Shown here: piece after piece, positions 14,305 through 30,179 of the stretch
How the letters are laid out: every line of letters starts with the position of its first letter
Position numbering within the stretch: position 1 is the stretch's first letter
Virus record (IMG/VR): IMGVR_UViG_3300020421_000067
Span: 1 to 36,432 of that record
Source: a virus
DNA: 36,432 nt
Strand: one strand, 5' to 3'
Translations under genes and position numbers: made by a program
The notes under the pieces: model-generated
The model's input: only the letters and a program-made list of their open reading frames with translations
Databases searched by the model: none
Told to the model about the DNA's origin: nothing

Positions 14305-17300
14305 ATGCCTCTTAATAAGTTAGAGAATTTTATAAAGAATACTGAGGGTCGTGTTCTTTATGTAAATCCAAATGATCTTGATTCCACTGATGGTGTCGAA
14401 AATCAAGGTAATTCATTAACCAAACCCTTCAAAACGATTCAAAGAGCACTTATTGAGGCTGCTAGATTCTCATATCTTCGTGGAAACGATAATGACTTAG
14501 TAGAAAGAACGACAATATTAATATTTCCAGGCGACCATGTAATTGATAATAGACCAGGATTTGGTATAAGAAATGAGTCAGGTATTGCAAAAGCAATCAG
14601 TCCAAGCGGTTCAGCAACAGGTGCACAAAATACATTAACTCTCACATTAAACTCTAACTTTGATTTAACACAAGAAGATAATATTTTATACAAGTTCAAT
14701 AGTGTTCATGGTGGAATTGTTGTCCCAAGAGGTACATCAATAGTTGGTTTGGATTTAAGGAAAACTAGAATTAGACCATTATATGTTCCTAACCCAACAG
14801 ATAATAATGTAAAGAGCACTGCTATATTCAGAATTACTGGTGCTTGTTATTTCTGGCAGTTTACATTTTTTGATGGAGATGAAGCAGGTTTAGTATATAC
14901 AGATCCATCAGACTTTAGTGCAAATAATCAATCAAAACCAACATTCTCTCACCATAAGATAACTGCATTTGAATATGCGGATGGTGTGAATACTCTTGAT
15001 AATTTTAGTGATTTAACTGACTTAGACATATATTACAGTAAACTTACTAATGCATTTAACAGAGCATCTAATCGAGAGATAGACCAAAAATATCCATCAG
15101 CACCTGCTGCATTTTCACCACAAAGACCAGAATTTGAAATTGTTGGTGCTTTTGCAACTGACCCACTTAATATAACGAATATTGAATCAGGTGATGGTGC
15201 AACACCTGGTCAGGTTGTAACTGTCACAACTCAAACAAATCATAATCTTACTGGTGGAACTCCAATTAAGATTCGTGGAATTAACGTAGCAGATTATAAC
15301 ATATCAACTAAGGTATCGAATGTAATAGATGATACGAGGTTCCAATTCTCACTACCATTTGTAAGACCAAACTTACCAGCAGGTTCTGCTGGAGGACTAA
15401 GTTCTGCAAACGGGCAAGTATTAGTCGAAACTGACACAGTTACAGGTGCATCACCATACATCTTTAACTGCTCAATGCGTTCTGTATATGGTATGCAGGG
15501 TTTACACGCAGATGGTGCAAAGGCAACTGGATTTAAATCTATGGTTACTGCTCAGTTTACAGCAGTATCTCTACAAAAAGATGATAGGGCATTTGTAAAG
15601 TATGATAAAACTAATAGAAGATATAGTGGTATTGCTTTCTCAAAACAGACAGGAGCATTACTATCTTCTGAATCTTCATCAACAAATCCAGAAACAGTAT
15701 TCCATCTAGATCAAGAAGCAAATTATAGAAAAGGATTTAGAACAACTCATATTAAAGTAAGTAATGATGCAGTTGTACAGATTGTGTCAGTGTTTGCGAT
15801 TGGTTTCCACGCACACTTTGAAATGATAAATGGTGCAGACGCATCTATTACAAACTCTAACTCTAACTTTGGTACATTCTCACTTCTCGCTGAAGGATTT
15901 AAGAAAGAAGCATTTGCAAAGGATGATAAAGGTTTTATAACATCTGTAATTACACCTCGTTCAATTGTAAATGATCAGCAACAGATTGAATTTTTACAAA
16001 TAGATGTATCGGAAACAACAGCAACCAAGTTATTCTTATTTGCACAACCAACTTTAAGTCTACCACCTGCACATATCGCACAAGGTTTTAGAATTGGTGC
16101 AAGGTTTGATGAAAAACTGTTCATTGATAATGGGGGTAGCACATTCTCTGCGACAGTTGTAATGCCAAATGGTGCTTCTGGTACTTCAAATGTTGGTGAG
16201 AAAAATTATGAAGCAATTCATTCAGATGCTAGTGCGTCAACTAAATCTGTGTTCACAATTAATGCGGGACACGAACTTGCAAACGGTGAATCCATAAGAA
16301 TTATTGCAGATAATGGTGATTTACCTGAAAATATTGACCCACATACTGTATATTTTGCTATTACTAGTACACAAGATAGTGCACTAGGTGCAAATCAAAT
16401 CCGTATTGCATCGTCAAAAACAAATGCTGATTTAGCAATACCTGTTTTTGTTGCAACAGTAGCAAGCACAACAGACAAATTTAGAATTGTAAGTAGGGTA
16501 TCAGATAAAAGACCAAATGATGCTGGACATCCAATACAATATGATACAAGTGCTGGACAATGGTTTGTTCATACTTTAGCTGCTGGTAATACTATACACA
16601 ATGGTTCATCAATATATGCAAACGCAACTGATGATGACATTACATATGTTTTAAGAACAGATGATGATAGAAGTTTAGATGAGAAAATATACAAATTAAG
16701 ATATGTTGTACCAAAAGAACTCACAAATGGTAGAGATCCAACAGATGGATTTGTTTTACAAGATTCAAGTTCAACTAATGTCCTAGCAAATACAGATTTT
16801 AGTAAGACAACAATCACTGCAAATGACTATGCTTTTGATCGTAATACAAGATTTATATCTCAAGCAAGTTTTGATAGTACAGAAAATTTAATTACAATAC
16901 GTTCAGATAAACCACATAATTTAGGTGTTGGTGATCAAGTAGTAGTTAGAAATGTTCAAAGTACAACTAACTCAAACGCATTAGTAAATAAAGGATACAA
17001 TGGTACATTTTTAGTTTCTGAAATTAAAAATGATAAGGAGTTTAGATACTCTAATGTAGACACAGCAGGAGTGACACATACTACTGGTACATTTACAAAC
17101 AACACTCAGACACGTTCTACTTTATTACCTAGATTTGACAGGAATGATAATAGTGGTAACTTCTTTGTATACAGAACTGAAACAATCACTCCGTATATTC
17201 AAGGAGTTCAAGATGGTGTTCATCATCTTTTCGTATTGAATAGTAACAATGCGATGGATGAACCATCAAATGAATTTTCAGAAAAGAAGTACAATCAGAA

Positions 17301-20028
17301 CATTGTCAACTTATTTCCAGAATATGATCGTGACAATATAAATGCAAACCCACCAGCAGCGGTATCTTACGCAAAAAGATTCCCTATCGGTGATGTTGTA
17401 ACTAATGATTTAAAGAAAAGTATTACTAGAGAGACTACTAACCAATTCTTAAAAAATTTCGAGGGTTCAATAGGTATTACATCAGTTGTCAATAATAACA
17501 CAAATGCAGTAATTAACCTTAACAAAGAACATAGTTTCCAATCACTTAAGTTTCATAATACTTTAAATGGTGGTTCGGGTCATACTGATGGTACTTATTA
17601 TAACGTCAGATTATTGAATAGTAATGCAACTCCAGCGACTGCACCTTGGGATGGTGCGACTGCAAAAGTTGTTGTATCAAGTAATGCTGTAACTTCAGTT
17701 GAGATTACTGATGGGGGATCCGCATACACAAACGGTGAAACATTATTCTTTGATAGTCAAACCCCTGCTTTAGGTGGTATTGGTGGTTCACCAAATGCTA
17801 GTTTAACTATTGCAACTGCTGGTATATCATCGGCTACTGGACATTATATTCAAGTTACGGGTATTACAACTGGGACTGACTCTTATCATCGTATATCAAG
17901 TATTAATAGCACTAAACAAATTACTGTTGCTAAGTCTGCTGCTGATACTTTATTAGATGGACAACAGATACACGATATGGGTCCTTGGGTTGCAGTTGGT
18001 TCTGCTACTACAACTTCAGGAACAACAACATTTACTACTCCTGTTGACCACGGACTAGCAGTTGGTAACAAATTCAGAATATTAAACAGCAATGATGCTA
18101 GTTTGGGTGACTTTGTTGTTACATCAATCGTTGGTATAACACAATTTTCTGCTAAAACAACAACCTCACTAACAGATGCAAAATACATTCTGAAACATGG
18201 TTTATCAGACAATGAATCAATCTCAGGAGTTGCTGGTGAAAATATAGATGTAAGAGGATTTAATATATTTGATCACGAAACACTAATCCTAAATGAGGCG
18301 ATTGGAACTGGTGATGCTGCATTCAAAGTTAAACTTCCTGATGGAACTACAACTGCAACATCTATTGTAAATCGTTTTCCACTTGGTTCATATATTCAGA
18401 TTGGTGGAGAGATTATGCGTGTTGCATCAAGCTCACTATCTGGTGGAGGTGGAGATGAGATAACAGTTATTCGTGGTTCACTAGGAACAAATACAGAAAC
18501 TCATCTTGTTAATTCAAGAATCAAGAAGGTAAAACCATTACCGATTGAACTCCGCAGACCTTCGATATTAAGGTCATCAGGACACACATTTGAATATGTT
18601 GGTTTTGGTCCAGGTAACTATTCAACTGCATTACCTCAATTACAGAATAGATCATTAACTGAGAGAGAAGAGTTCCTTAACCAAGCACAGGAAACATCTT
18701 GTGGTAACGTTGTTTATACAGGTATGAATGATAAGGGTGATTTCTATATTGGAAACACCAAGATTGCATCTGCTAGTGGACAACAAACTACATTCGATAT
18801 CCCAGTCGCAACAGTTACTGGTGAAGATCCAAATCGTTTGAGTGCTGTATTTGATGAAGTTGTTGTTAAAGAAAGACTACTTGTTGAAGGTGGAGCATCG
18901 AAACAAATATTATCTCAGTTTGATGGTCCTGTTACATTCAATAGTGACTTAAGATTATCAGATAATACTAAGCAACTTATTACTGAAGCAGAGATTCGTG
19001 CACAAGATGCTAAGTTTAGAGATACAACCAACTCAACTGCTGTAACTAATGGTGCAGTGGTTATTGATGGTGGTATGGGTATCGCTAAAGATATTGTAAT
19101 AGGTGGTAATATCATTGGCGATGGTGCAACTAATATTTCAGGAATTGCATCTGTTACTGCAACATCATTCTTTGGTGATGGTGCTGGATTAACAAATACA
19201 GGTGCTCAATTAACAGCAACATCTGGTTCGCAAAGGGTTGTTCTTACAACTCTTACCAGTGGAACTATGACATCTGCTACAACAGATGGAGATCTAACAT
19301 TTAATGCTTCCACAAACACTTTATCCTGTCCTAATTTTGTTGGTGCAATAAATGGTAATGCTGGCACTGCGACTCTAGCAACTAATGTTGTTGGTGGTGC
19401 CAATAGAGTGATATTTAATAACAATACAGATACAACAACCACCTCTGCTGCACTCACGTTTGACGGGACTCAACTTAATGTTACCAATAACATAAGAGCA
19501 AACAATCTAACACTTGGATTAACTGCTGGTACAACAATCAATACCACAACTGGTGATTTAGTATTAGATTCATCAAACAACAAAGTTCATATCACTGCAA
19601 ATGCAGAGGTAGATGGATCAATGACCATTGATAGTAGTACAAACTCATCAAGTAAAGATACTGGTGCACTTGTTATTACCGCTGGTGGACTTGGAGTTGA
19701 GGGCAATATACATTGTGGTGGTGATATAATTGCATTTAGTTCATCTGATGTGAATCTAAAATACAACATCAATATAATAACAAATGCACTTGATAAGATA
19801 AACGCAATCTCAGGTAATACATTTACTTGGAAAGATACTGAGGACACATTCTTATCAGGAAATGATACAGGTGTTATTGCACAAGAAGTTGAGGCACTTG
19901 GATTACCAGGTATCACTACAACTAGGGATGATGGTTTTAAGGCAGTAAATTATCATAAACTTGTTCCACTTCTCATTGAAGCAGTCAAAGAACTTTCTGC
20001 GAGAGTTTCTGCACTTGAGGGTTCATAA
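14305..20028 (+). CDS. Large tail fibre/spike protein with C-terminal S74 intramolecular chaperone
   Basis: A 1907-aa virion protein. The N-terminus (GRVLYVNPNDLDSTDGVENQ, then GNSLTKPFKTIQRALIEAAR) is the start of a pectate-lyase-like beta-helix seen in large cyanophage structural proteins. The middle has repeated beta-rich segments (for example GGSAYTNGETL, SGHTFEYVGFGPGNY). Residues 1690 onward carry fibre repeats shared with the next gene (TSFFGDGAGLTNTG). The last 100 residues form a peptidase-S74 chaperone: SSSDVNLKYNI, then GVIAQEVEALGLPGI and AVNYHKLVPLLIEAVKEL. By analogy with endosialidases the dyad would be S1814 and K1819, with self-cleavage before S1814 after trimerisation. Confidence 0.8.
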   Translation: MPLNKLENFIKNTEGRVLYVNPNDLDSTDGVENQGNSLTKPFKTIQRALIEAARFSYLRGNDNDLVERTTILIFPGDHVIDNRPGFGIRNESGIAKAISPSGSATGAQNTLTLTLNSNFDLTQEDNILYKFNSVHGGIVVPRGTSIVGLDLRKTRIRPLYVPNPTDNNVKSTAIFRITGACYFWQFTFFDGDEAGLVYTDPSDFSANNQSKPTFSHHKITAFEYADGVNTLDNFSDLTDLDIYYSKLTNAFNRASNREIDQKYPSAPAAFSPQRPEFEIVGAFATDPLNITNIESGDGATPGQVVTVTTQTNHNLTGGTPIKIRGINVADYNISTKVSNVIDDTRFQFSLPFVRPNLPAGSAGGLSSANGQVLVETDTVTGASPYIFNCSMRSVYGMQGLHADGAKATGFKSMVTAQFTAVSLQKDDRAFVKYDKTNRRYSGIAFSKQTGALLSSESSSTNPETVFHLDQEANYRKGFRTTHIKVSNDAVVQIVSVFAIGFHAHFEMINGADASITNSNSNFGTFSLLAEGFKKEAFAKDDKGFITSVITPRSIVNDQQQIEFLQIDVSETTATKLFLFAQPTLSLPPAHIAQGFRIGARFDEKLFIDNGGSTFSATVVMPNGASGTSNVGEKNYEAIHSDASASTKSVFTINAGHELANGESIRIIADNGDLPENIDPHTVYFAITSTQDSALGANQIRIASSKTNADLAIPVFVATVASTTDKFRIVSRVSDKRPNDAGHPIQYDTSAGQWFVHTLAAGNTIHNGSSIYANATDDDITYVLRTDDDRSLDEKIYKLRYVVPKELTNGRDPTDGFVLQDSSSTNVLANTDFSKTTITANDYAFDRNTRFISQASFDSTENLITIRSDKPHNLGVGDQVVVRNVQSTTNSNALVNKGYNGTFLVSEIKNDKEFRYSNVDTAGVTHTTGTFTNNTQTRSTLLPRFDRNDNSGNFFVYRTETITPYIQGVQDGVHHLFVLNSNNAMDEPSNEFSEKKYNQNIVNLFPEYDRDNINANPPAAVSYAKRFPIGDVVTNDLKKSITRETTNQFLKNFEGSIGITSVVNNNTNAVINLNKEHSFQSLKFHNTLNGGSGHTDGTYYNVRLLNSNATPATAPWDGATAKVVVSSNAVTSVEITDGGSAYTNGETLFFDSQTPALGGIGGSPNASLTIATAGISSATGHYIQVTGITTGTDSYHRISSINSTKQITVAKSAADTLLDGQQIHDMGPWVAVGSATTTSGTTTFTTPVDHGLAVGNKFRILNSNDASLGDFVVTSIVGITQFSAKTTTSLTDAKYILKHGLSDNESISGVAGENIDVRGFNIFDHETLILNEAIGTGDAAFKVKLPDGTTTATSIVNRFPLGSYIQIGGEIMRVASSSLSGGGGDEITVIRGSLGTNTETHLVNSRIKKVKPLPIELRRPSILRSSGHTFEYVGFGPGNYSTALPQLQNRSLTEREEFLNQAQETSCGNVVYTGMNDKGDFYIGNTKIASASGQQTTFDIPVATVTGEDPNRLSAVFDEVVVKERLLVEGGASKQILSQFDGPVTFNSDLRLSDNTKQLITEAEIRAQDAKFRDTTNSTAVTNGAVVIDGGMGIAKDIVIGGNIIGDGATNISGIASVTATSFFGDGAGLTNTGAQLTATSGSQRVVLTTLTSGTMTSATTDGDLTFNASTNTLSCPNFVGAINGNAGTATLATNVVGGANRVIFNNNTDTTTTSAALTFDGTQLNVTNNIRANNLTLGLTAGTTINTTTGDLVLDSSNNKVHITANAEVDGSMTIDSSTNSSSKDTGALVITAGGLGVEGNIHCGGDIIAFSSSDVNLKYNINIITNALDKINAISGNTFTWKDTEDTFLSGNDTGVIAQEVEALGLPGITTTRDDGFKAVNYHKLVPLLIEAVKELSARVSALEGS

Positions 20029-22242: not shown

Positions 22243-23229
22243 ATGACTATTAAATCATCTGGAAGTTCATTAGCGTTCTCTGAAATAGAAGCAGAGTTTG
22301 GTGCAAATGGATCTAGATCTTTAGGAGCATATAGAACAACACAAAATGTAGGTGAATTATCAAATTTACCTCTAGATTCTGGTATCCCAACATCAGGTCA
22401 AATAAAGTTCAGTGATTTTTATAGTAAGCAATTAAACGTAGTTGTTGATATGCACTCAGGAGGTACAGAGTTTCGTAAGAGTGCAAAGAGTGATAAATGG
22501 AATAATAATCAAGTTACAGTCATTGGTGGATTTAGAAGTAAAAAGGAAAGTGGAAGTAAAATAATCATTCATATTAATAAAAAATTTGGTTCTGATAAGA
22601 GTAGTGTTAATAATTGTGCAGTCAAAACAGGTTCTTGGAGTGCTGCTGTAGTACAAGTTGATGTTGGCGGTGAAGGTGAAGTTTTGGGTGCTGGAGGTAA
22701 CGGAGGACGAGGTGGTGAGTGTTTAAATAATGGACAAGCTGGTGGTACTGGCACCAGTGGATTAGGTGTAGAACATAATGGTGCTATAGTTAATGTGTTA
22801 AATGGTGGTATAATTCGTGCTGGCTTCGGAGGAGGCGGTGGCGGTGGCGGTGGTCAACAGGTAGATAAAGGTTCAGATAGAAGAGCGTCAGGTGGTGGCG
22901 GTGGTGGTGGAGCTGGATTCCCTGCTGGAGAAGGTGGTGCACAGGTTGGTGGATGTGGTGGTTCAGGAGTTCAAGGAGGAAGTGATGGAAACGAAACAAG
23001 TGCTGGAGAAGGTGGTAGTGGTGCTAATAACGCTGGAGAAGCTGGTGGTGGCAGTGGTGGAGATGGTGGACAATTTGGTGAAGCAGCAAATAATGGAGTT
23101 AGTTCTCAAAGATCAGGTGGTCAAAAGGGTGGTGATGGAGCAGCAATAAGGCGAAATTCTGGATTTAGTGTTACAATAAACAATAATGGTACAATACAAG
23201 GAAGCACTTCTGCAACAGGAGTAGGATAA
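22243..23229 (+). CDS. Polyglycine-rich tail adhesin, gp38-like
   Basis: A 328-aa protein. Residues 1-60 carry a known phage fibre-attachment pattern (SSLAFSEIEAEFG, then IPTSGQIKFSDFYSKQ). A beta-rich middle follows (about 65-145). Residues about 146-300 are extremely Gly-rich, with blocks such as GGGGGGGGG and GAGFPAGEGGAQVGGCGGSG, separated by short polar loops. This layout (attachment domain, then polyglycine strands with variable loops) is that of T4-like gp38 adhesins, in which polyglycine-II helices present receptor-binding loops. The homology is inferred from architecture. It starts 2 nt after the fibre gene and is followed by the oxygenase island. Confidence 0.65.
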   Translation: MTIKSSGSSLAFSEIEAEFGANGSRSLGAYRTTQNVGELSNLPLDSGIPTSGQIKFSDFYSKQLNVVVDMHSGGTEFRKSAKSDKWNNNQVTVIGGFRSKKESGSKIIIHINKKFGSDKSSVNNCAVKTGSWSAAVVQVDVGGEGEVLGAGGNGGRGGECLNNGQAGGTGTSGLGVEHNGAIVNVLNGGIIRAGFGGGGGGGGGQQVDKGSDRRASGGGGGGGAGFPAGEGGAQVGGCGGSGVQGGSDGNETSAGEGGSGANNAGEAGGGSGGDGGQFGEAANNGVSSQRSGGQKGGDGAAIRRNSGFSVTINNNGTIQGSTSATGVG

Positions 23230-23250
23230 CTGTTTTAAATTTTTTTTATT

Positions 23251-23826
23251 ATGGCAATTGAATCTGATTTGATACGAAGGTATAGGGGTGCTGTCTCACC
23301 TGAAGAATGTGATGAAATAATATCCCATATAGATTATCTTGAAAAAAATAACATAATGACTTATGATAAAAAATCTCTTCATAATCAAGATCATAAATCT
23401 ATTAACATCGCACATGATTGGAGTGTCGATTTACCTGCTTATAGTAGATTATCAGAACTTATAATTCCAAGATTACAACCTTGTGTCGATGAGTATCTAA
23501 CTGCTTTTAGTGTTCTAAAACAATGTAAATTTTTATTATATGACTTGAAGATTAAGAAAATACCTATAGGTGGAGGATTTCACTCTTGGCACTTCGAGAA
23601 TGGTGGAATACCTTATTCACAAAGAACTTTTGTATGTCAATTATATCTAAATGATAATTTTAATGGTGGGGAGACAGAGTTTTTATATCAAAATAGAAGA
23701 GAGGTGGCAGTCGCAGGTGATGTTATAATGTTTCCAGCTGGTTTTACTCATACACATCGTGGTAATCCACCAATAGGTAATCCAAAGTATATTGCCACAT
23801 CTTGGGGTATTTTACAAAATGAATAG
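23251..23826 (+). CDS. Prolyl-4-hydroxylase-like Fe(II)/2-oxoglutarate oxygenase
   Basis: A 191-aa protein of the P4H-type 2OG-Fe(II) family, common in marine cyanophages. The double-stranded beta-helix core shows GGFHSWHFENG (residues 108-118), LYLNDNFNGGETEFL (131-145), AGDVIMFPAGFTHTHRG (155-171) and K179 followed by YIATSW. The proximal iron ligands would be H114 and E116, an H-x-E variant of the usual H-x-D, with the distal ligand H167 or H169. Typical substrates are proline or other residues in proteins, but none is known here. It follows the glycine-rich adhesin by 21 nt and overlaps the next oxygenase gene by 8 nt, so it may act on a structural protein. Confidence 0.8.
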   Translation: MAIESDLIRRYRGAVSPEECDEIISHIDYLEKNNIMTYDKKSLHNQDHKSINIAHDWSVDLPAYSRLSELIIPRLQPCVDEYLTAFSVLKQCKFLLYDLKIKKIPIGGGFHSWHFENGGIPYSQRTFVCQLYLNDNFNGGETEFLYQNRREVAVAGDVIMFPAGFTHTHRGNPPIGNPKYIATSWGILQNE

Positions 23827-24526
23827 ACAAATATATAATATCTTTCCCACTACAATTTATGTGAGCGAGGTTGAAAATCATAATCAATACAAGGAGCAGT
23901 TTTATAAATTATATACTAAGTATGATTATGAACAAAAATCATTTCGAGATAATGAAGAATGGTTTAATACAACAAGTGAAAATGCAGGTAATCCCCTTAT
24001 TCATCTAGAAGAAAGTTTATCTGAGTTATTCAATGAGATAATACACAATGTCAAAATATATACTCTTGATGTACTAAAGTATCAGGACATATTTGATTAT
24101 GTGATTACAAAAACTTGGTTGTCTAGATCAAGGGCAACTTATGAAAACATCAAGTGGCACTCACATTCGACAAGTCATATTTCTTTTTCATATTATCTCA
24201 ACACTCCACAAAACTCACACGCAATTAAATTTGCAAACCCACATAACACAAATAGTTTATTTACTGGATTAAATAGCAGTGATGTTAAAGATGGTGTTGC
24301 AGAAAGAAATGAACTCAACGCATCAACATTTCATATTGAACCAAGAGAAGGTTCTTTAATTTTATTTCCAAGTTCGCTTGACCATTGCACTCAATGTCAA
24401 AATGAGAATTTTGATGGTGAAAGGTTGGCAATAGTTGGTGATGTAACTTTGGTTTATAAAGAAGATGGAACAAATGATTACTCAATGGGGTATATTAACC
24501 CAAAATATTGGAGGATTTACAATTGA
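23819..24526 (+). CDS. Putative 2OG-Fe(II) oxygenase
   Basis: A 235-aa protein (start at MNRQIYNIFPTTIYV, ATG at 23819; an upstream in-frame ATG at 23792 lies inside the previous gene). The opening and the core KWHSHSTSHISFSYYLNTP (H114, H116), then EPREGSLILFPSSLDHC (distal H189) and GERLAIVGDV (R202 for the 2-oxoglutarate carboxylate), fit the 2OG-FeII_Oxy_5 family. Its product and substrate are unknown. The H-x-H pair in place of H-x-D is typical of this subgroup. It overlaps its upstream neighbour, and its stop overlaps the next start (TTGA). Confidence 0.75.
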   Translation: MNRQIYNIFPTTIYVSEVENHNQYKEQFYKLYTKYDYEQKSFRDNEEWFNTTSENAGNPLIHLEESLSELFNEIIHNVKIYTLDVLKYQDIFDYVITKTWLSRSRATYENIKWHSHSTSHISFSYYLNTPQNSHAIKFANPHNTNSLFTGLNSSDVKDGVAERNELNASTFHIEPREGSLILFPSSLDHCTQCQNENFDGERLAIVGDVTLVYKEDGTNDYSMGYINPKYWRIYN

Positions 24527-24870
24527 AATCAATTATTAAAATAGATGAGTACTTATCTGATAGGAATAGTATAGTTGTAAAAATATGCAACTTGCACTCA
24601 CAGAAACCAATTGATGATTATGCTGCAAAAATTGTTGATTGTGATAATTTAGATACTACTGACGTTGAAATATTTGTTGATGATCTTATGAAAAAAAGTG
24701 GTAGTAGAAGAATACAGAGACAGGAGGAAAAATTACCAATATTAAAAGAAAACATACCAGAAGAAGTAAGTGGTGAACTAGATTTACAAAGTTTAGTTGG
24801 TAAGGTAATAGAAGGAAAGGTTGATAATTGGAGAAAAAAAGTATTAAAAATGAGAAAGGTAGAATTATGA
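24523..24870 (+). CDS. Unknown charged protein in the oxygenase island
   Basis: A 115-aa protein. I choose TTG at 24523 (MKSIIKIDEYLSD) because GGAGGAT lies 8-12 nt upstream and the TTG overlaps the previous stop (TTGA). A TTG at 24508 would add five residues. It is rich in Lys and Glu with a helical C-terminus (VDNWRKKVLKMRKVEL). No domain is recognised. Its position between oxygenase genes and a cupin-like protein suggests a partner role. Confidence 0.55.
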   Translation: MKSIIKIDEYLSDRNSIVVKICNLHSQKPIDDYAAKIVDCDNLDTTDVEIFVDDLMKKSGSRRIQRQEEKLPILKENIPEEVSGELDLQSLVGKVIEGKVDNWRKKVLKMRKVEL

Positions 24871-25340
24871 ATTGTCAGCATTACTTTAAAAAATTAGATA
24901 AGTTTGCAGTTTGTGCATTTAAGGCAGATAAAGGATTCTTAGAAATAGAACCTTTCTCTGAGAGTTGTGGCATATATCATTATGTTTTTTATGGTTCAGC
25001 AAAGATAGGTAAACCTTTTCAATCTGAGTTTGAGATTGTCAATAAGGGTGATTTTTTTGATATGAAAAATTATCTACATCAACCCAGACTTTATGAAGCA
25101 CTTGAGGATTTTTATGTTTGGGGTTTTAATACATTTGGAGAGGAGGAATGGGATGCGAGATTATTGACTAATGAAACATTAAAAGTAGAAGGAGATTCAG
25201 TTTTGATATGTCTTGACGGAAAACCAGTAGTAAATGATAAAACTTTAAGGAGATTTGATTATAGTGAATTATCGACAGAAAAATCTTATGATGTAAAACT
25301 AGGTGACGGGGTGATTGCTTTATTCACCCGTAGTAAGTAA
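24867..25340 (+). CDS. Possible cupin-like protein of unknown function
   Basis: A 157-aa protein starting at ATG 24867 (MNCQHYFKKLDKF), overlapping the previous stop (ATGA). An earlier TTG at 24828 is not needed. The sequence alternates beta-strands and turns (FLEIEPFSESCGIYHYVFYG, GDSVLICLDGKPV, KLGDGVIALFTRSK), suggesting a small cupin-type barrel, but no metal-binding H-x-H is visible. The gene ends in a 17-nt tail-to-tail overlap with the halogenase. Function unknown; the cupin idea is a weak structural guess. Confidence 0.55.
   Translation: MNCQHYFKKLDKFAVCAFKADKGFLEIEPFSESCGIYHYVFYGSAKIGKPFQSEFEIVNKGDFFDMKNYLHQPRLYEALEDFYVWGFNTFGEEEWDARLLTNETLKVEGDSVLICLDGKPVVNDKTLRRFDYSELSTEKSYDVKLGDGVIALFTRSK
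25306..25331. terminator. Hairpin in the convergent overlap of two genes
   Basis: ACGGGGTGA (25306-25314) pairs with TCACCCGT (25324-25331), with one bulged G and a 9-nt loop. It lies where the cupin-like gene and the halogenase gene end on opposite strands. No T-run follows on either strand, so its role as a terminator is uncertain. Confidence 0.35.
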
Positions 25341-26496
25341 ATTCATTAAAATACACACCTAAAGTTGCCCATATTGCATTTGAAAATAAATTAGTTTTTT
25401 TATTTTTCTTTTTTCTATAATTTTCCCATAACGATTTCCTCACATCAAATTGATTGTAGTATTTCCAAAATTCAGTATCAGTTCGACTGCTAAGTTTGTA
25501 GTGGTGTAATATAAAATCTGAGTTACCTTTCCATATTCTCCGCATATTGCGATTATATACGTCTTGTGATTTGTTCTTCAATATGCAGTCAACGAGTGAA
25601 GTAATGCCATACACAGTCATATACAAAGCATTTGCTTCTAATGGGTCAATAAACCCACAAGCGTTACCAATTGCTACTACGTCATCACTCCAAGCATTTG
25701 TTAGAATATTTGGTTTCCATTTTAATAATCTTGGTTTACCGATTGGTTTTAGATGCGAATTATATTTTTTGAATTGTTCGAGTGCATCATCATCAGATAC
25801 ATATTGACTTGAGAAAACATATCCATTACCAATTTTGTTTGTTAAGTCAATTACAAACTGCCAACCATACTCTCTTGCAATTGATTTAGTATAGTTTTCT
25901 ATTTTATCAGTTTGTTCATATGGACATACCCAAGCACTATCAACTAAGTGGTCATCAAATATAGTTTCAGATTTATCTTTGACAAATTTGCGAGAGAACC
26001 CAGTACAATCAACATATAAATCATATCCTTTTGGTAATTCTGATAATGTTTCAATCTTATGAGTTATATTATCACAATGATTCTTCATTATTGAATTAGC
26101 TTTCTCTGCATCAAGGTGATAAGCGATTGAACCCCAATCACCCTTTGAATATAATTCATTTAACTGGTGTTTTGTTTTATTCTGTTGATACCACTTCTTA
26201 AATTTATTATTATCATCGTGCCAAAAAGTAAATGTAAATGGTTTTCCATCAACCTTATCCCAACCTATTTTTATATTTCCATACTTATAAACTGCACTAC
26301 ATTCTTCCATCCACTCTGATTCTTCAACACCTATAGCATCAAAGAAAGTTTTGATTTGTGGTAAGGATGATTCTCCTACACCTAAAATTGGTATATCATT
26401 ACTTTCTATAAGTGTGATTTCAGCATCTAGAAATTTATTCATATAGGCAGCACACCACCATCCTGATACTCCACCACCAATAATACAGATTTTCAT
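25324..26496 (-). CDS. Flavin-dependent tryptophan-halogenase-like enzyme
   Basis: A 390-aa protein of the tryptophan halogenase family. The start is ATG at 26496 (MKICIIGGGVSGWWCAAYM). A FAD-binding Rossmann G-x-G-x-x-G motif lies at residues 7-12, and GVGESSLPQIKTFFDAIGV at 39-57. AVYK at 68-71 lies where the catalytic lysine of PrnA (K79) falls. GWQFVIDLTNKIGNGYVFSS corresponds to the G-W-x-W-x-I-P / G-Y-V-Y-S signature, and GFIDPLEANALY holds the conserved Glu. The two Trp of G-W-x-W-x-I-P are changed to W and F. These enzymes use FADH2, O2 and halide to make hypohalous acid. Homologues exist in other cyanophages, including an iodinating one. The start overlaps the stop of an oxygenase gene. 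Confidence 0.85.
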   Translation of the reverse strand: MKICIIGGGVSGWWCAAYMNKFLDAEITLIESNDIPILGVGESSLPQIKTFFDAIGVEESEWMEECSAVYKYGNIKIGWDKVDGKPFTFTFWHDDNNKFKKWYQQNKTKHQLNELYSKGDWGSIAYHLDAEKANSIMKNHCDNITHKIETLSELPKGYDLYVDCTGFSRKFVKDKSETIFDDHLVDSAWVCPYEQTDKIENYTKSIAREYGWQFVIDLTNKIGNGYVFSSQYVSDDDALEQFKKYNSHLKPIGKPRLLKWKPNILTNAWSDDVVAIGNACGFIDPLEANALYMTVYGITSLVDCILKNKSQDVYNRNMRRIWKGNSDFILHHYKLSSRTDTEFWKYYNQFDVRKSLWENYRKKKNKKTNLFSNAIWATLGVYFNEFTYYG

Positions 26497-27062
26497 TCGT
26501 GATCTATGCAATTAGTAAGTAAGTTTGTTACAACTTTAAAGTTATGAGGGTTTATATAAATTCCGATTAGTATATGATAGATGTCATCAACCATCGCAAA
26601 TGAACCGTGTTGTTTCTTGGTATTTAATAAGTATGCTCTACCTGCCTTGAGTTCAACTATATTCTTATCGTATATAAATGCAAATTCGTGCAACTCTGTT
26701 TTGTTAAGTGGAATAAAAATTCTCATTTGTTGAGTTGTCTTATATGCGTCACGATGCAATCGAAAGAAACTACCACTATTCATATTGACTGCGTGACATT
26801 TAGCGAGACTGTTCCATAATTTAAAAAAATCTATGAGTGAAGGGCATTTCTTTAAATTATCGTTTATACTACAATCATTTCTTTTTGTGAGTTCTAAGTC
26901 ATCAACACTACCTGTAAGAGTCAATCCTTTCTTATTATTAGAACCATCCATCCATTTATCAATAGATTTTAGTTCATTAATAATTAAAGGAACATCAAAT
27001 TGATAATCTAGTTCAACTATATCTCCATAACTATTCAGTATCGTTAGATATGTATCGTTCAT
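26493..27062 (-). CDS. Putative 2OG-Fe(II) oxygenase, upstream of the halogenase
   Basis: A 189-aa protein with start ATG at 27062 (MNDTYLTILNSYGDI). A TTG at 27089 would add nine residues. The core shows GSFFRLHRDAYKTTQQMRI (H103-x-D105), then ELKAGRAYLLNTKKQHGSF (distal H152). A conserved basic position is not obvious. The spacing of motifs fits small aspartyl/asparaginyl-hydroxylase-like 2OG oxygenases. The stop overlaps the ATG of the halogenase (ATGA), so the two enzymes are co-produced. Its own start lies inside the end of the DUF6356-like gene (32-nt overlap). Confidence 0.65.
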   Translation of the reverse strand: MNDTYLTILNSYGDIVELDYQFDVPLIINELKSIDKWMDGSNNKKGLTLTGSVDDLELTKRNDCSINDNLKKCPSLIDFFKLWNSLAKCHAVNMNSGSFFRLHRDAYKTTQQMRIFIPLNKTELHEFAFIYDKNIVELKAGRAYLLNTKKQHGSFAMVDDIYHILIGIYINPHNFKVVTNLLTNCIDHE

Positions 27063-27312
27063 TTTTTGGATATTTGTGGAGTTTGTCAAGTTTTTGAATA
27101 TGTTGTATTTTCATAATTTCGTGGTATAATATAATTACACCTTTGGGTGCATCTGATTTCCACATAAATGGAAGTAATCCATGAACTAGACTCTTAAACG
27201 AGATTTTAATCAATTTATAAGAGTTTACGAGAGAGTGTCTAAGATGAAACCAATAAGTCCATCCAGTTTCTACTTCTAAGTGATATTTGGATTCCTTAAA
27301 AATATTTCTCAT
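27031..27312 (-). CDS. DUF6356-like small membrane-associated protein
   Basis: A 93-aa protein with ATG at 27312 (MRNIFKESKYHLEVETGW). The pattern F-K-E...H-L-x-x-T-G-x-T-Y-x-x-H, then a hydrophobic stretch SFKSLVHGLLPFMWKSDAP, matches the DUF6356 family, known from marine bacteria and phages with no assigned function. There is probably one membrane-interacting helix (residues 38-56). It leads the minus-strand group DUF6356 - oxygenase - halogenase and has a sigma70-like promoter in front of it. Confidence 0.65.
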   Translation of the reverse strand: MRNIFKESKYHLEVETGWTYWFHLRHSLVNSYKLIKISFKSLVHGLLPFMWKSDAPKGVIILYHEIMKIQHIQKLDKLHKYPKNERYISNDTE

Positions 27313-27318
27313 AATTAT

Positions 27319-27346
27319 ATTATAACACAACTATCTAGTAATGCAA
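27319..27346 (-). promoter_or_regulatory. Sigma70-like promoter for the halogenase operon
   Basis: On the minus strand, TTGCAT (27341-27346), a 16-bp spacer, and TATAAT (27319-27324) preceded by TGT (extended -10). The expected start is at or just before the ATG at 27312, giving a very short leader or a leaderless message. The -35 overlaps the start codon of the divergent oxygenase gene. Confidence 0.45.
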
Positions 27347-27967
27347 AATATATCTGCCGATGCCCATCTAAAACCATTCCCACATATTATATTTCATAAT
27401 TTTTATGATGATAATGAACTAGAACTTATATGGGAAGAATTAACTTTTTATACTAGACCTAAAAAGTTATTTGATGTAGAAGAATATCAAGGTGTTGTGG
27501 GATATACGAAGGCAAAGGCATTACACCTAGATTCTGTATATACAGGTAAAAATAGAGTTTTATCAAGTATCCTAGAAGTATCTAGAAAAGTGTTTGACAG
27601 TCAAATTTTAGAACCATTTTCTAATATACACGATTGTTGCTCTGCTGCCACACAATCAAATTACGATGTAACTAAAGTAAGATATTACCATAATGGAGAT
27701 TACTATAAACCACATAAAGATATATATTTTGATTTTTTAGCATTTTCTTATTTTTTTAAAGAACCCAAAAAATTTGAAGGTGGTAATCTAATATTCCCAA
27801 AATATGATTATGAATTTAATTGCGAACATAATTCATTGATTATGATGCCATCTTGGGTTGAACATGGAGTAAGTGAGGTTTCAATAAACGATTCAGATTA
27901 TTATGATGGATATGGTAGATATGCCATAACTCATTTTTTTGGATGCAAGGAGAAAAATAATGACTAA
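27341..27967 (+). CDS. 2OG-Fe(II) oxygenase, P4H-like
   Basis: A 208-aa protein with a clear double-stranded beta-helix: YYHNGDYYKPHKDIYFDFLA (H125-x-D127), then EGGNLIFPKYDYEF, then NSLIMMPSWVEHGVSEV (H175) and Y-G-R193-Y-A-I for the co-substrate. H-x-D...H...R is intact, so activity is likely. It resembles the P4H-like enzymes of cyanophages; the substrate is unknown. It is transcribed divergently from the halogenase operon and overlaps the next oxygenase by 8 nt. Confidence 0.8.
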   Translation: MQNISADAHLKPFPHIIFHNFYDDNELELIWEELTFYTRPKKLFDVEEYQGVVGYTKAKALHLDSVYTGKNRVLSSILEVSRKVFDSQILEPFSNIHDCCSAATQSNYDVTKVRYYHNGDYYKPHKDIYFDFLAFSYFFKEPKKFEGGNLIFPKYDYEFNCEHNSLIMMPSWVEHGVSEVSINDSDYYDGYGRYAITHFFGCKEKNND

Positions 27968-28502
27968 TTATAAACCACCTTACTGGTATCACGATAATAT
28001 TGAATTTACTTATGAAAATTTAAAGGAACTTAAATTTGATATTGATTCTGTTGGTTCTAAAAAATTTGCTAAAGAAAACCAACACATAAGCACATATTTT
28101 TTAAAAGAAATCGAAAGACCTGATAAAAAATTTAATGACATATACTCAATTATAGTTCGTGACATAGTAGAAAAGGTAGGTGTATATGATAAAGTGAGAT
28201 ATGATTGCACTTACTGGACACAATTATATGAAAAAGGAATGAAACATAAACCCCATCATCACGCACATGAAGATAAAAAGATGGGTTCTGATATATCTTG
28301 GGTTCATTTTTTAGATGTGCCTAAACAAAAATGTTTCAGATTTACAGATACAAAAGGAAATATATTAATACCCAATGAGCAAAGTAATGGAGATATAATA
28401 TGTTTTCCCTCTTGGGTATGGCACGAAGTTATACCAAATGAAACTAACAAAAGGAGAATCGTTATATCAGGTAATATTACATTTACACACTATGATGATT
28501 GA
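27960..28502 (+). CDS. Putative 2OG-Fe(II) oxygenase
   Basis: A 180-aa protein with ATG at 27960 (MTNYKPPYWYHDNIEFTY). The core has MKHKPHHHAHEDKKMGSDIS (histidines 96, 99-101 and 103), DISWVHFLDVPKQKC, then GDIICFPSWVWHEVIPN (distal H155) and KRRIVISGN (R165/R166). This fits the small 2OG-FeII family, with the proximal iron ligands among the His cluster; which residues bind metal cannot be fixed by eye. It is last of the plus-strand island and is followed by a terminator. Confidence 0.7.
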   Translation: MTNYKPPYWYHDNIEFTYENLKELKFDIDSVGSKKFAKENQHISTYFLKEIERPDKKFNDIYSIIVRDIVEKVGVYDKVRYDCTYWTQLYEKGMKHKPHHHAHEDKKMGSDISWVHFLDVPKQKCFRFTDTKGNILIPNEQSNGDIICFPSWVWHEVIPNETNKRRIVISGNITFTHYDD

Positions 28503-28514
28503 TAAACTGGCACA

Positions 28515-28538
28515 ACCTCCTGCACAGGAGGTATTTTT
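28515..28538 (+). terminator. Rho-independent terminator after the oxygenase island
   Basis: A perfect 7-bp stem ACCTCCT (28515-28521) with AGGAGGT (28526-28532), a 4-nt loop GCAC, then A and five T. It insulates the island from the helicase gene. Confidence 0.8.
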
Positions 28539-28569: not shown

Positions 28570-29745
28570 ATGCAACTAAGACCCCACCAAGAACAAGCGA
28601 TACAATCAATGTTAGACAATGACAAAGGACAAGTCATTGTTCCTACTGGTGGTGGTAAGACTATCTGTATGATTATGGATGCTATCAGACAGTTGGAAAC
28701 TGATGCTACAGTTGTAGTCGTTGCACCACGCATACTTCTTGCAGAGCAACTATGTAAAGAGTTTATAGAAATCCTTGACGAACATTATATTGATGTGTCT
28801 TATTTGCACGTTCATAGTGGTAGAGTTAAAGGAATGTATAATACCACAAACCCATTTGAGATTCAATCTTTTTATGAGACAACAAGTGGTCGTAAGATTA
28901 TTTTTACAACTTATCATTCACTACACAGGATTGAAGAGTCAGGTATCAATGTTGATACTATCTACTTTGATGAAGCACACAACTCAGTACAGAAAAACTT
29001 TTTCCCTGCTACTGATTACTTCTCTCAGTATGCTCATCGTTGTTACTTCTTTACAGCAACACCAAAGCATAGTCGTTCTCCTGTCAAGGCAGGTATGAAC
29101 TGGACAGAGGTGTATGGTGGTGTAATATGTCAAGTACCTGCACCAAAGTTAGTCAAGCAAGGTTACATACTACCACCTAAAGTCAAGGTGTATCGTTCAA
29201 GAATACTCAAGAAAGATGAGTTAGTTGCAGACAGAGACAATGAGCAAATGATAGGTGCGATTGACAATCTTGATAAGGACAAAGTATTGATATGTGCTAA
29301 GTCAACCAGACAGATTGTTGCACTTGTTTCTCAGACAGATTTCGTACAACAACTTGCTATTCGTGGTTACTCTTATATGTTTATCACAGCAAAAACAGGT
29401 GCGATGATTGATGGAGAAAAGGTTGACAGAGAGACTTTCTTTGATACACTAAATCAATGGGGTAGGACAGACAAAAAGTTTGTTGTATTGCATCACAGCA
29501 TACTCTCAGAGGGTATCAATGTCAATGGTCTTGAAGCAGTATTGTTTATGAGGTCTATGGACTACATAGGTATCTCACAGACAATTGGTAGAGTTATTCG
29601 TAAGGGCGATGCAGACAAAGTATTTGGTCTTGTATGTGTACCAGTTTACTCTAATGTTGGTATTACTACCGCAAGAAAGGTTGAAGCAGTAGTCGATACT
29701 ATCTTCAACAAAGGACAGGCAGCTACAACAATTATTACACGATGA
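28570..29745 (+). CDS. SF2 DEAH-box DNA helicase
   Basis: A 391-aa ATP-dependent helicase. Residues 1-10 hold the Q-motif-like LRPHQEQAI. Walker A is PTGGGKT (25-31), motif Ia VVAPRILLAEQL, motif II DEAH (134-137), and motif III FTATP (161-165). The C-terminal part has SEGINVNGLEAVLFM and QTIGRVIRKG (motifs V-VI). It lacks the N-terminal domain of T4 UvsW (about 500 aa), so I call it an SF2/SSL2-type helicase rather than UvsW. Such a gene is common next to nucleotide-transfer genes in cyanophages. It overlaps the next gene by ATGA. Confidence 0.85.
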   Translation: MQLRPHQEQAIQSMLDNDKGQVIVPTGGGKTICMIMDAIRQLETDATVVVVAPRILLAEQLCKEFIEILDEHYIDVSYLHVHSGRVKGMYNTTNPFEIQSFYETTSGRKIIFTTYHSLHRIEESGINVDTIYFDEAHNSVQKNFFPATDYFSQYAHRCYFFTATPKHSRSPVKAGMNWTEVYGGVICQVPAPKLVKQGYILPPKVKVYRSRILKKDELVADRDNEQMIGAIDNLDKDKVLICAKSTRQIVALVSQTDFVQQLAIRGYSYMFITAKTGAMIDGEKVDRETFFDTLNQWGRTDKKFVVLHHSILSEGINVNGLEAVLFMRSMDYIGISQTIGRVIRKGDADKVFGLVCVPVYSNVGITTARKVEAVVDTIFNKGQAATTIITR

Positions 29746-30179
29746 GTAGAATAGTTTTAGTCACAGGTGGATTTGACCCAATACACACAGGTCATATATC
29801 ATACTTCAAAAATGCAAAAGAGTTATATCCACATACACCATTATGTGTGGGATTGAATTCAGATGAGTGGTTAATTCGTAAGAAAGGAAAGTATTTCTTA
29901 CCGATGACAGAAAGAAGAGCAATCGTTAAAGAAATGAAACCAGTTGACCTTACTATTACTTATGATGACTCTGATGATAGTAGTTGCAATGCGATACTAA
30001 AGTGTTTACAAATGTATGATAAAGTGGTATTCTGTAATGGAGGAGATAGAGTAAATACCAATGTTCCTGAGTTACAAAAATTCAATGACGATGAAAGAGT
30101 TGTCTTTGAGTGGGGTGTGGGTGGCGATAATAAAATGAATAGCAGTAGTTGGATTTTAAATGAGTTTTTAAAAAAATGA
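29742..30179 (+). CDS. Cytidylyltransferase-like nucleotidyltransferase
   Basis: A 145-aa protein of the small HxGH nucleotidyltransferase family (glycerol-3-phosphate cytidylyltransferase and RfaE-C types). It has GGFDPIHTGH (residues 9-18, with HTGH at 15-18), the central V-V-F-C-N-G-G-D-R, and a C-terminal NSSSWILNEFLKK where family members usually have I-S-T-T/S. The acceptor substrate cannot be stated. The protein might activate a small sugar or polyol phosphate for lipid or glycan precursors, or have a phage-specific role. It overlaps the helicase and the 34-aa gene (ATGA junctions). Confidence 0.75.
   Translation: MSRIVLVTGGFDPIHTGHISYFKNAKELYPHTPLCVGLNSDEWLIRKKGKYFLPMTERRAIVKEMKPVDLTITYDDSDDSSCNAILKCLQMYDKVVFCNGGDRVNTNVPELQKFNDDERVVFEWGVGGDNKMNSSSWILNEFLKK

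Follow-up and report, generated by a model that had tools for sequence, protein, structure and literature searches.

The gp38 adhesins of T4-like phages, such as gp38 of phage S16, carry a polyglycine-rich C-terminal domain, belong to the Pfam family GP38 and are encoded by the last gene of a fibre run. Known protein hydroxylases are found in the prolyl-4-hydroxylase (P4H), AspH and JmjC_2 families. Cyanophages are known to encode both 2-oxoglutarate (2OG) oxygenases and halogenases (PMC3037559, PMC2984593, PMC8407142); the halogenase VirX1 accepts diverse small aromatics (PMC8407142), the oxygenases of S-SZBM1 were called scattered by its authors (PMC9146016), and protein modification was mentioned in passing as one possible role (PMC9964418). 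Why cyanophages have many 2OG oxygenases, and what the natural substrate of their halogenases is, has been a question since 2010, and the answers proposed have mostly invoked DNA repair or host metabolism. Here, we describe a locus at positions 22243-28502 of a 36.4-kb IMG/VR record of a T4-like phage (IMGVR_UViG_3300020421_000067; its whole length of 36,432 nucleotides is referred to as the window), in which the gene for a gp38-type adhesin is followed by genes for five Fe(II)/2OG oxygenases and a compact Trp_halogenase-family flavoprotein (Table 1). The baseplate region of the window is nearest to P-SSM2-type phages and single-cell marine viruses (~70% DNA identity).

Adhesin-linked oxygenases in relatives and cultured cyanophages

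The window was compared with >150 IMG/VR contigs (loci are cited by L numbers), and its gene order recurred in many of them. The adhesin N-terminal domain was used for a scan in which the best 80 of 374 relatives were taken, and counts were derived from the 48 loci with ≥4 kb of downstream sequence. A 2OG oxygenase was encoded downstream of the adhesin in 46 of these 48 loci; oxA was present in 39, oxF in 31, unkC/unkD in 25, and a halogenase in 15. The recurrent arrangement, termed unit 1, is adhesin-oxA-(oxB)-unkC-unkD-(oxF), and the leanest form is adhesin-oxA-oxF-helicase. The position of oxB varies (behind oxA, ahead of the adhesin, or past the reverse-strand trio described below), but the gene remains in the locus.

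Covariation with the adhesin C-terminal domain was evaluated by Mantel-type correlations of pairwise identity matrices. The correlations were r = 0.95 for oxA, 0.91 for oxB and 0.88 for unkD, and 0.66 for DUF6356, 0.58 for oxE and 0.40 for the halogenase, values that are not proof of function because neighbouring genes share recombination tracts and the contigs are interrelated. In L021, the DUF6356 and oxE proteins were 97% and 94% identical to those of the window, the halogenase only 57%; in L008, both small proteins were 92% identical, and the halogenase belonged to a different class of about 505 amino acids. Thus, the oxygenases behave as adhesin-matched and the halogenase as exchangeable.

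Among cultured cyanophages, the order fibre genes, one or two halogenases, oxygenases was found in Syn9, S-RIM44, P-TIM40, S-SZBM1, S-CREM1, S-WAM1 and P-RSM6, and Sf-CH11 carries oxygenases on both sides of a halogenase behind a structural protein. P4H-like, DUF6445 and JmjC_2 proteins are encoded in fibre-linked clusters of cultured phages. Across 15 cultured genomes, 54 oxygenases were located ≤6 kb from a halogenase versus 17.7 expected (random rotation, p = 2e-4), a statistic that ignores relatedness and is inflated by double halogenases and related genomes. This enrichment and the recurrence of the same gene order in many contigs indicate clustering beyond chance. The adhesin link of the enzymes, proposed earlier for this one window, therefore extends well beyond it, given the 46 of 48 loci, the covariation of oxA and oxB, and the same layout in cultured cyanophages. 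The expectation that the same set would occur behind adhesins in other cyanophages held for the fibre-halogenase-oxygenase layout, with other genes, and not in all phages: the halogenase/oxygenase genes of S-PM2, Syn1, Sf-CH3, S-B64, S-H38 and CP21 are not fibre-linked.

A portable reverse-strand cassette

The reverse-strand trio DUF6356-oxE-halogenase (unit 2) is inserted between unkD and oxF. These two genes are separated by about 5 bp in L095 and L097 versus 2,000 bp in the window, and in many unkD loci oxF follows straight after unkD with no reverse-strand cassette. Of the 61 loci with unkD, a 2OG oxygenase was present in 60, the adhesin in 48 and a halogenase in 30. When oxE and DUF6356 were used as queries, about 25 contigs were recovered, one of them 235.8 kb long; in most, adhesin-oxA-(oxB)-unkC-unkD faces halogenase-(oxE)-DUF6356, and oxF and a helicase gene come next. 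No fibre or adhesin like that of the window was present in 65 of 80 compact-halogenase loci, many of which retain DUF6356 and oxE; the compact halogenase lies near an Mtd_N fibre in L214, and near tail and neck genes in L206. The trio is a portable unit of several phage lineages. Other arrangements with a halogenase close to the adhesin exist in L183, L188 and L193-L196, and in closer relatives lacking the trio the slot often has further 2OG oxygenases, including an Asp_Arg_Hydrox (aspartyl/asparaginyl hydroxylase-family) protein.

The sequence-only reading had taken the number of these enzymes to suggest one pathway. This part was abandoned, as the trio is separable, occurs in phages without this adhesin and has a halogenase that is exchanged independently of the adjacent genes; a single five-oxygenase pathway was rejected because of the empty site and the independent exchange. 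Scatter without an adhesin link, which would have spoken against the proposed association, was partly seen for the halogenase cassette and was not seen for the oxygenases.

DUF6356 had no match in 50,697 annotated phage records, in which oxE had one weak relative, called Asp_Arg_Hydrox, from Pelagibacter phage Mosig. A bacterial origin of DUF6356 or oxE was considered and rejected, as two genome contig scans revealed no relative.

Several further features were observed around the cassette genes. In L035 (8001-9781), the slot halogenase seems broken or shortened (two separate matches, N-terminus missing) beside an intact DUF6356 gene. A homologue of the peptide transporter SbmA/BacA (PF05992, 2e-138; L206:6966-7934) is encoded shortly before the compact halogenase and near the tail and neck genes, and the open reading frame before the halogenase in L219, L225 and L226 is similar to it by sequence start. 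An AMP-binding protein is encoded beside the compact halogenase in both L247 (3209-14562) and L214 (6153-11814); L247 also has carbamoyltransferase, DegT aminotransferase and radical SAM genes and resembles a biosynthetic phage cluster. The DUF6356-oxE clusters at L032:8819-11297, L020:9763-12505 and L019:14-1553 share a protein of 268-317 amino acids without a Pfam match and have sulfotransferase-like genes, with a single weak Pfam hit in L019; the clusters of L019 and L032 are located near fibre genes.

Assignment of the enzymes and small proteins

The count of five Fe(II)/2OG oxygenases given by the sequence-only reading stands. The double-stranded beta-helix domain was recognised in all of them, in four by Pfam/PHROG profile and in oxE by fold, and by sequence and model the five proteins belong to the Fe(II)/2OG oxygenase superfamily, with 2OG turnover itself predicted. 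The iron triad of oxA (H114-x-E116...H167/H169) is invariant among homologues, oxF has H125-x-D127, and oxB and oxG show, at motif level, the His-rich HxH-type motifs of their own family. No sequence match to oxE was found in Pfam, PHROG or the PDB. Its AlphaFold model (predicted local distance difference test, pLDDT, 83.9) gave top PDB matches in Foldseek that include L-proline cis-4-hydroxylase, proline 3-hydroxylase and AspH, and H112-x-D114...H161 was invariant across 18 homologues; because of this fold match and the invariant HxD...H, oxE was counted as the fifth oxygenase.

The DUF6356 protein scored above the PF19883 cut-off (33 versus 24.4 bits), and unkC had no Pfam or PHROG match. 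The high-confidence model of unkD (pLDDT 90.0) had cupins and HutD as best PDB matches in Foldseek (template modelling score about 0.57-0.63), and the 19 aligned sequences share no conserved His, so that the cupin metal-binding pattern HxH...E...H is missing; unkD is predicted to be a cupin fold without conserved metal ligands.

The halogenase-like protein matches the Trp_halogenase profile (1.5e-74) and has the FAD-binding motif GxGxxG as GGGVSG. The catalytic Lys and Glu (RebH K79 and E357) are retained in the RebH alignment, and the corresponding K71 and E287 are invariant in 11 homologues. In place of the WxWxIP motif of characterised enzymes stands WQFVID; members of the compact cassette class share W-x-F-x-[IV]-[DH], VirX1-type phage enzymes retain WVWNIP/VP, and the Syn9 and S-RIM44 proteins retain WVWN[IV]P. 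The compact enzyme is a Trp_halogenase-family protein with putative carbon-halogen bond formation; it could represent either a halogenase whose properties are altered or a relative that has a different activity.

Some oxygenases of cultured phages carry unexpected labels. The genes annotated as 'DNA endonuclease V' behind the fibres of S-RIM44 (L039:13777-14409) and P-TIM40 (L042:10988-11593) encode 2OG-Fe(II) oxygenases by Pfam, and PHROG 274, 2297 and 3531 ('ferrochelatase') also match 2OG oxygenases; these labels look like annotation errors. DUF6445 proteins inside fibre-linked oxygenase clusters (L038:14948-15556, L039:12454-13215) may be another oxygenase-like family; that of S-RIM44 is annotated 'minor coat protein' and falls under the Pfam cut-off.

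The adhesin and its candidate target residues

The adhesin scored 30.7 bits against GP38 (cut-off 25), has a Gly-rich C-terminal domain and is encoded after a fibre gene, as expected for the gp38 type; by this profile match, a polyglycine-II helix lattice and receptor binding are putative properties. It comprises an N-terminal domain of about 135 amino acids, found among named phage records only in two single-cell-derived marine viruses, and a Gly domain with 73 Gly in 193 residues. In the window adhesin, the Gly domain contains one Pro and neither Trp nor Tyr, and all three residues are missing from the Gly domain of L037, a locus with a halogenase in the slot, which makes halogenation of the adhesin tip unlikely. 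Possible halogenation sites are the N-terminal domain of the adhesin, with 2 Trp and 2 Tyr, and the fibres, with 5 and 3 Trp and with 44 and 11 Tyr. The invariant adhesin Trp (TGxW) was rejected as the halogenase target, as L057 (TGSW) and L058 (TGSGW, one extra residue) have this Trp as well and no halogenase beside the adhesin.

Other features of the window

All genes that the sequence-only reading had listed were found at the same coordinates and in the same order (adhesin, oxA, oxB, unkC and unkD on the plus strand, the halogenase, oxE and DUF6356 genes on the minus strand, oxF and oxG on the plus strand), and the terminator that it placed at the end was recovered as a stem-loop with a T run. 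A nucleotidyltransferase-like gene behind the helicase gene (29742-30179) is conserved with the locus and is located between adhesin and unkC in L057. The late-promoter motif ATAAATA did not occur within the locus; one copy was present at 20025, before the gene for the 730-amino-acid tail protein, and matches were fewer than expected by chance. Sigma-70-like sites were not significantly more frequent than in shuffled sequences, and a search for structured RNA at the locus found none.

Table 1. Features of the adhesin-oxygenase locus and its upstream neighbours
Feature	Position	Strand	Evidence
Long tail-fibre/baseplate-linked fibre protein, 1907 amino acids, upstream neighbour	14305..20028	+	PHROG 529 tail fiber protein, score 1399
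Distal tail protein/fibre, 730 amino acids	20048..22240	+	PHROG 3269 tail protein
gp38-type glycine-rich adhesin	22243..23229	+	Pfam GP38 3.4e-7
oxA, P4H-like 2OG oxygenase	23251..23826	+	PF13640 (2OG-FeII_Oxy_3) 7.2e-8, PHROG 61
oxB, 2OG-FeII_Oxy_5 oxygenase, ATG start 23819	23819..24526	+	PF13759 2e-14
unkC, conserved small protein	24508..24870	+	Conserved in 14 aligned loci
unkD, predicted HutD-like cupin fold, ATG at 24867	24828..25340	+	AlphaFold, Foldseek, alignment
Compact Trp_halogenase-family flavoprotein, about 390-395 amino acids	25324..26511	-	PF04820 1.5e-74
oxE, fifth 2OG oxygenase, new sequence family	26493..27089	-	AlphaFold, Foldseek, HxD...H
DUF6356 protein, ATG start 27312	27031..27330	-	PF19883 6.9e-8, alignment
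2,000-bp stretch between unkD and oxF with reverse-strand cassette	25341..27340		
oxF, 2OG oxygenase	27341..27967	+	2OG-FeII_Oxy_3 PF13640 3.8e-7
oxG, 2OG-FeII_Oxy_5 oxygenase	27939..28502	+	PF13759 1.5e-9, PHROG 81 5e-28
Intrinsic terminator-like stem-loop and T run	28515..28532	+	

Proposed role and alternative explanations

In the explanation we favour, the region would be a modular tailoring locus linked, in uncultured marine T4-like phages, to the receptor-binding adhesin. Unit 1 (adhesin, oxA, oxB, unkC, unkD, oxF, oxG) would hydroxylate side chains of the newly made adhesin and/or fibre with O2 and 2OG, before or during assembly, with the cupin unkD and unkC as possible binding or assembly helpers. 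That unit 1 acts on virion (fibre/adhesin) proteins is suggested because oxA, oxB and their neighbours follow the adhesin and because their families include protein hydroxylases; we consider it quite possible, at slightly less than an even chance. Unit 2, the portable opposite-strand cassette, probably contributes an extra oxidative step (halogenation, possibly hydroxylation) on an aromatic group outside the adhesin glycine domain. From the earlier proposal of adhesin or fibre modification, the oxygenase-adhesin link was retained and halogenation of the adhesin tip was dropped; gene content, linkage, covariation, the insertion, the halogenase exchange and intact catalytic motifs are what the sequences show, and a virion protein as the substrate, the residue modified and an effect on binding are what we infer. 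A more tentative extension, to which we give about one chance in three, is that each adhesin type travels with its own hydroxylases as a matched, combinatorial system of oxidative modification, the flavoenzyme cassette being optional, and that the adhesin sequence would not set receptor binding by itself, part of it being due to post-translational chemistry.

Several observations weigh against virion hydroxylation. A single block of recombination surrounding the fibre genes could produce both linkage and covariation, no oxygenase follows the adhesin directly in its relatives L057 and L058, and none is within reach in L195/L196. The trio is also present in phages without this adhesin, some slot cargo appears by sequence to be DNA methyltransferase-like and not an oxygenase, and the Gly domain offers few candidate residues.

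Alternatively, the enzymes might act during infection on a small metabolite or on a glycan or lipid of the host surface (e.g. for superinfection block or cell protection), and adhesin and enzymes would then be adjacent through a common concern with the host surface. The company of related halogenases and of DUF6356-oxE elsewhere fits this account, including the carbamoyltransferase, DegT aminotransferase, radical SAM and AMP-binding genes of L247, a Nol-like carbamoyltransferase and heptose genes in S-SSM7, SbmA/BacA in L206 with its likenesses in L219, L225 and L226, and the sulfotransferase-like genes of other DUF6356-oxE clusters, as do the substrate range of VirX1 (PMC8407142) and a Gly domain devoid of aromatics. 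However, none of these biosynthetic partners is present in the window, the divergence of oxA and oxB tracks the adhesin, and the oxygenases remain beside the adhesin in loci that lack the halogenase, which leaves host tailoring rather unlikely.

A recombination hotspot behind the adhesin, gathering auxiliary cargo of unrelated roles with no functional tie to the adhesin, would account for the very variable length and content of the cargo between unkD and the helicase gene, for the portable trio and for the independent exchange of the halogenase. Random collection would not leave 46 of 48 loci with an oxygenase, most often oxA straight behind the adhesin, and the alternative cargo again consists mostly of oxygenases; we regard this explanation as improbable. 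The roles proposed for cyanophage 2OG oxygenases and halogenases, namely DNA repair, nitrogen/2OG balance and host antibiotic protection (PMC3037559, PMC2984593, PMC9964418, PMC9146016), are very improbable for this locus, as its adhesin-linked genes lie behind fibre genes and not among repair genes, and no pyrrolnitrin partner genes accompany the trio.

Comparison with known systems

No literature on fibre hydroxylation or on a fibre-linked halogenase/oxygenase locus was found, and no description of the adhesin-linked, adhesin-matched arrangement or of the DUF6356-oxE-halogenase cassette, in a search of incomplete coverage in which absence is weak evidence. Three observations make fibres a concrete candidate substrate that can be tested: the near-constant place of an oxygenase behind the adhesin, the covariation, and the recurrence of this layout around VirX1-type genes. 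If this is true, phage host recognition would include a layer of oxidative modification that sequence-based host prediction cannot see.

With T4-like gp38 adhesins, the window adhesin shares the polyglycine-rich C-terminal domain, the Pfam family GP38 and the position at the end of a fibre run; it differs in being followed by oxygenases. VirX1 (PDB 6qgm, from Syn10) is likewise a Trp_halogenase-family protein of a T4-like cyanophage, but is about 30% identical to the window enzyme and longer (531 versus 395 amino acids). The gp41/gp42 cluster of Syn9 resembles the locus in the place of its halogenase, which directly follows fibre genes and precedes 2OG oxygenases, whereas gp42 is VirX1-like in length (530 amino acids) and has WVWNIP, and the window enzyme has WQFVID, is encoded in reverse orientation and occurs together with oxE and DUF6356. 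The cyanophage 2OG-Fe(II) oxygenases described previously (PHROG 61, 81; T4-GC 104/240/412/611) belong to the same families and are present in many copies per genome (PMC3037559). In contrast to published treatments of these enzymes as scattered metabolic or repair genes, the set in the window is adhesin-linked and adhesin-matched.

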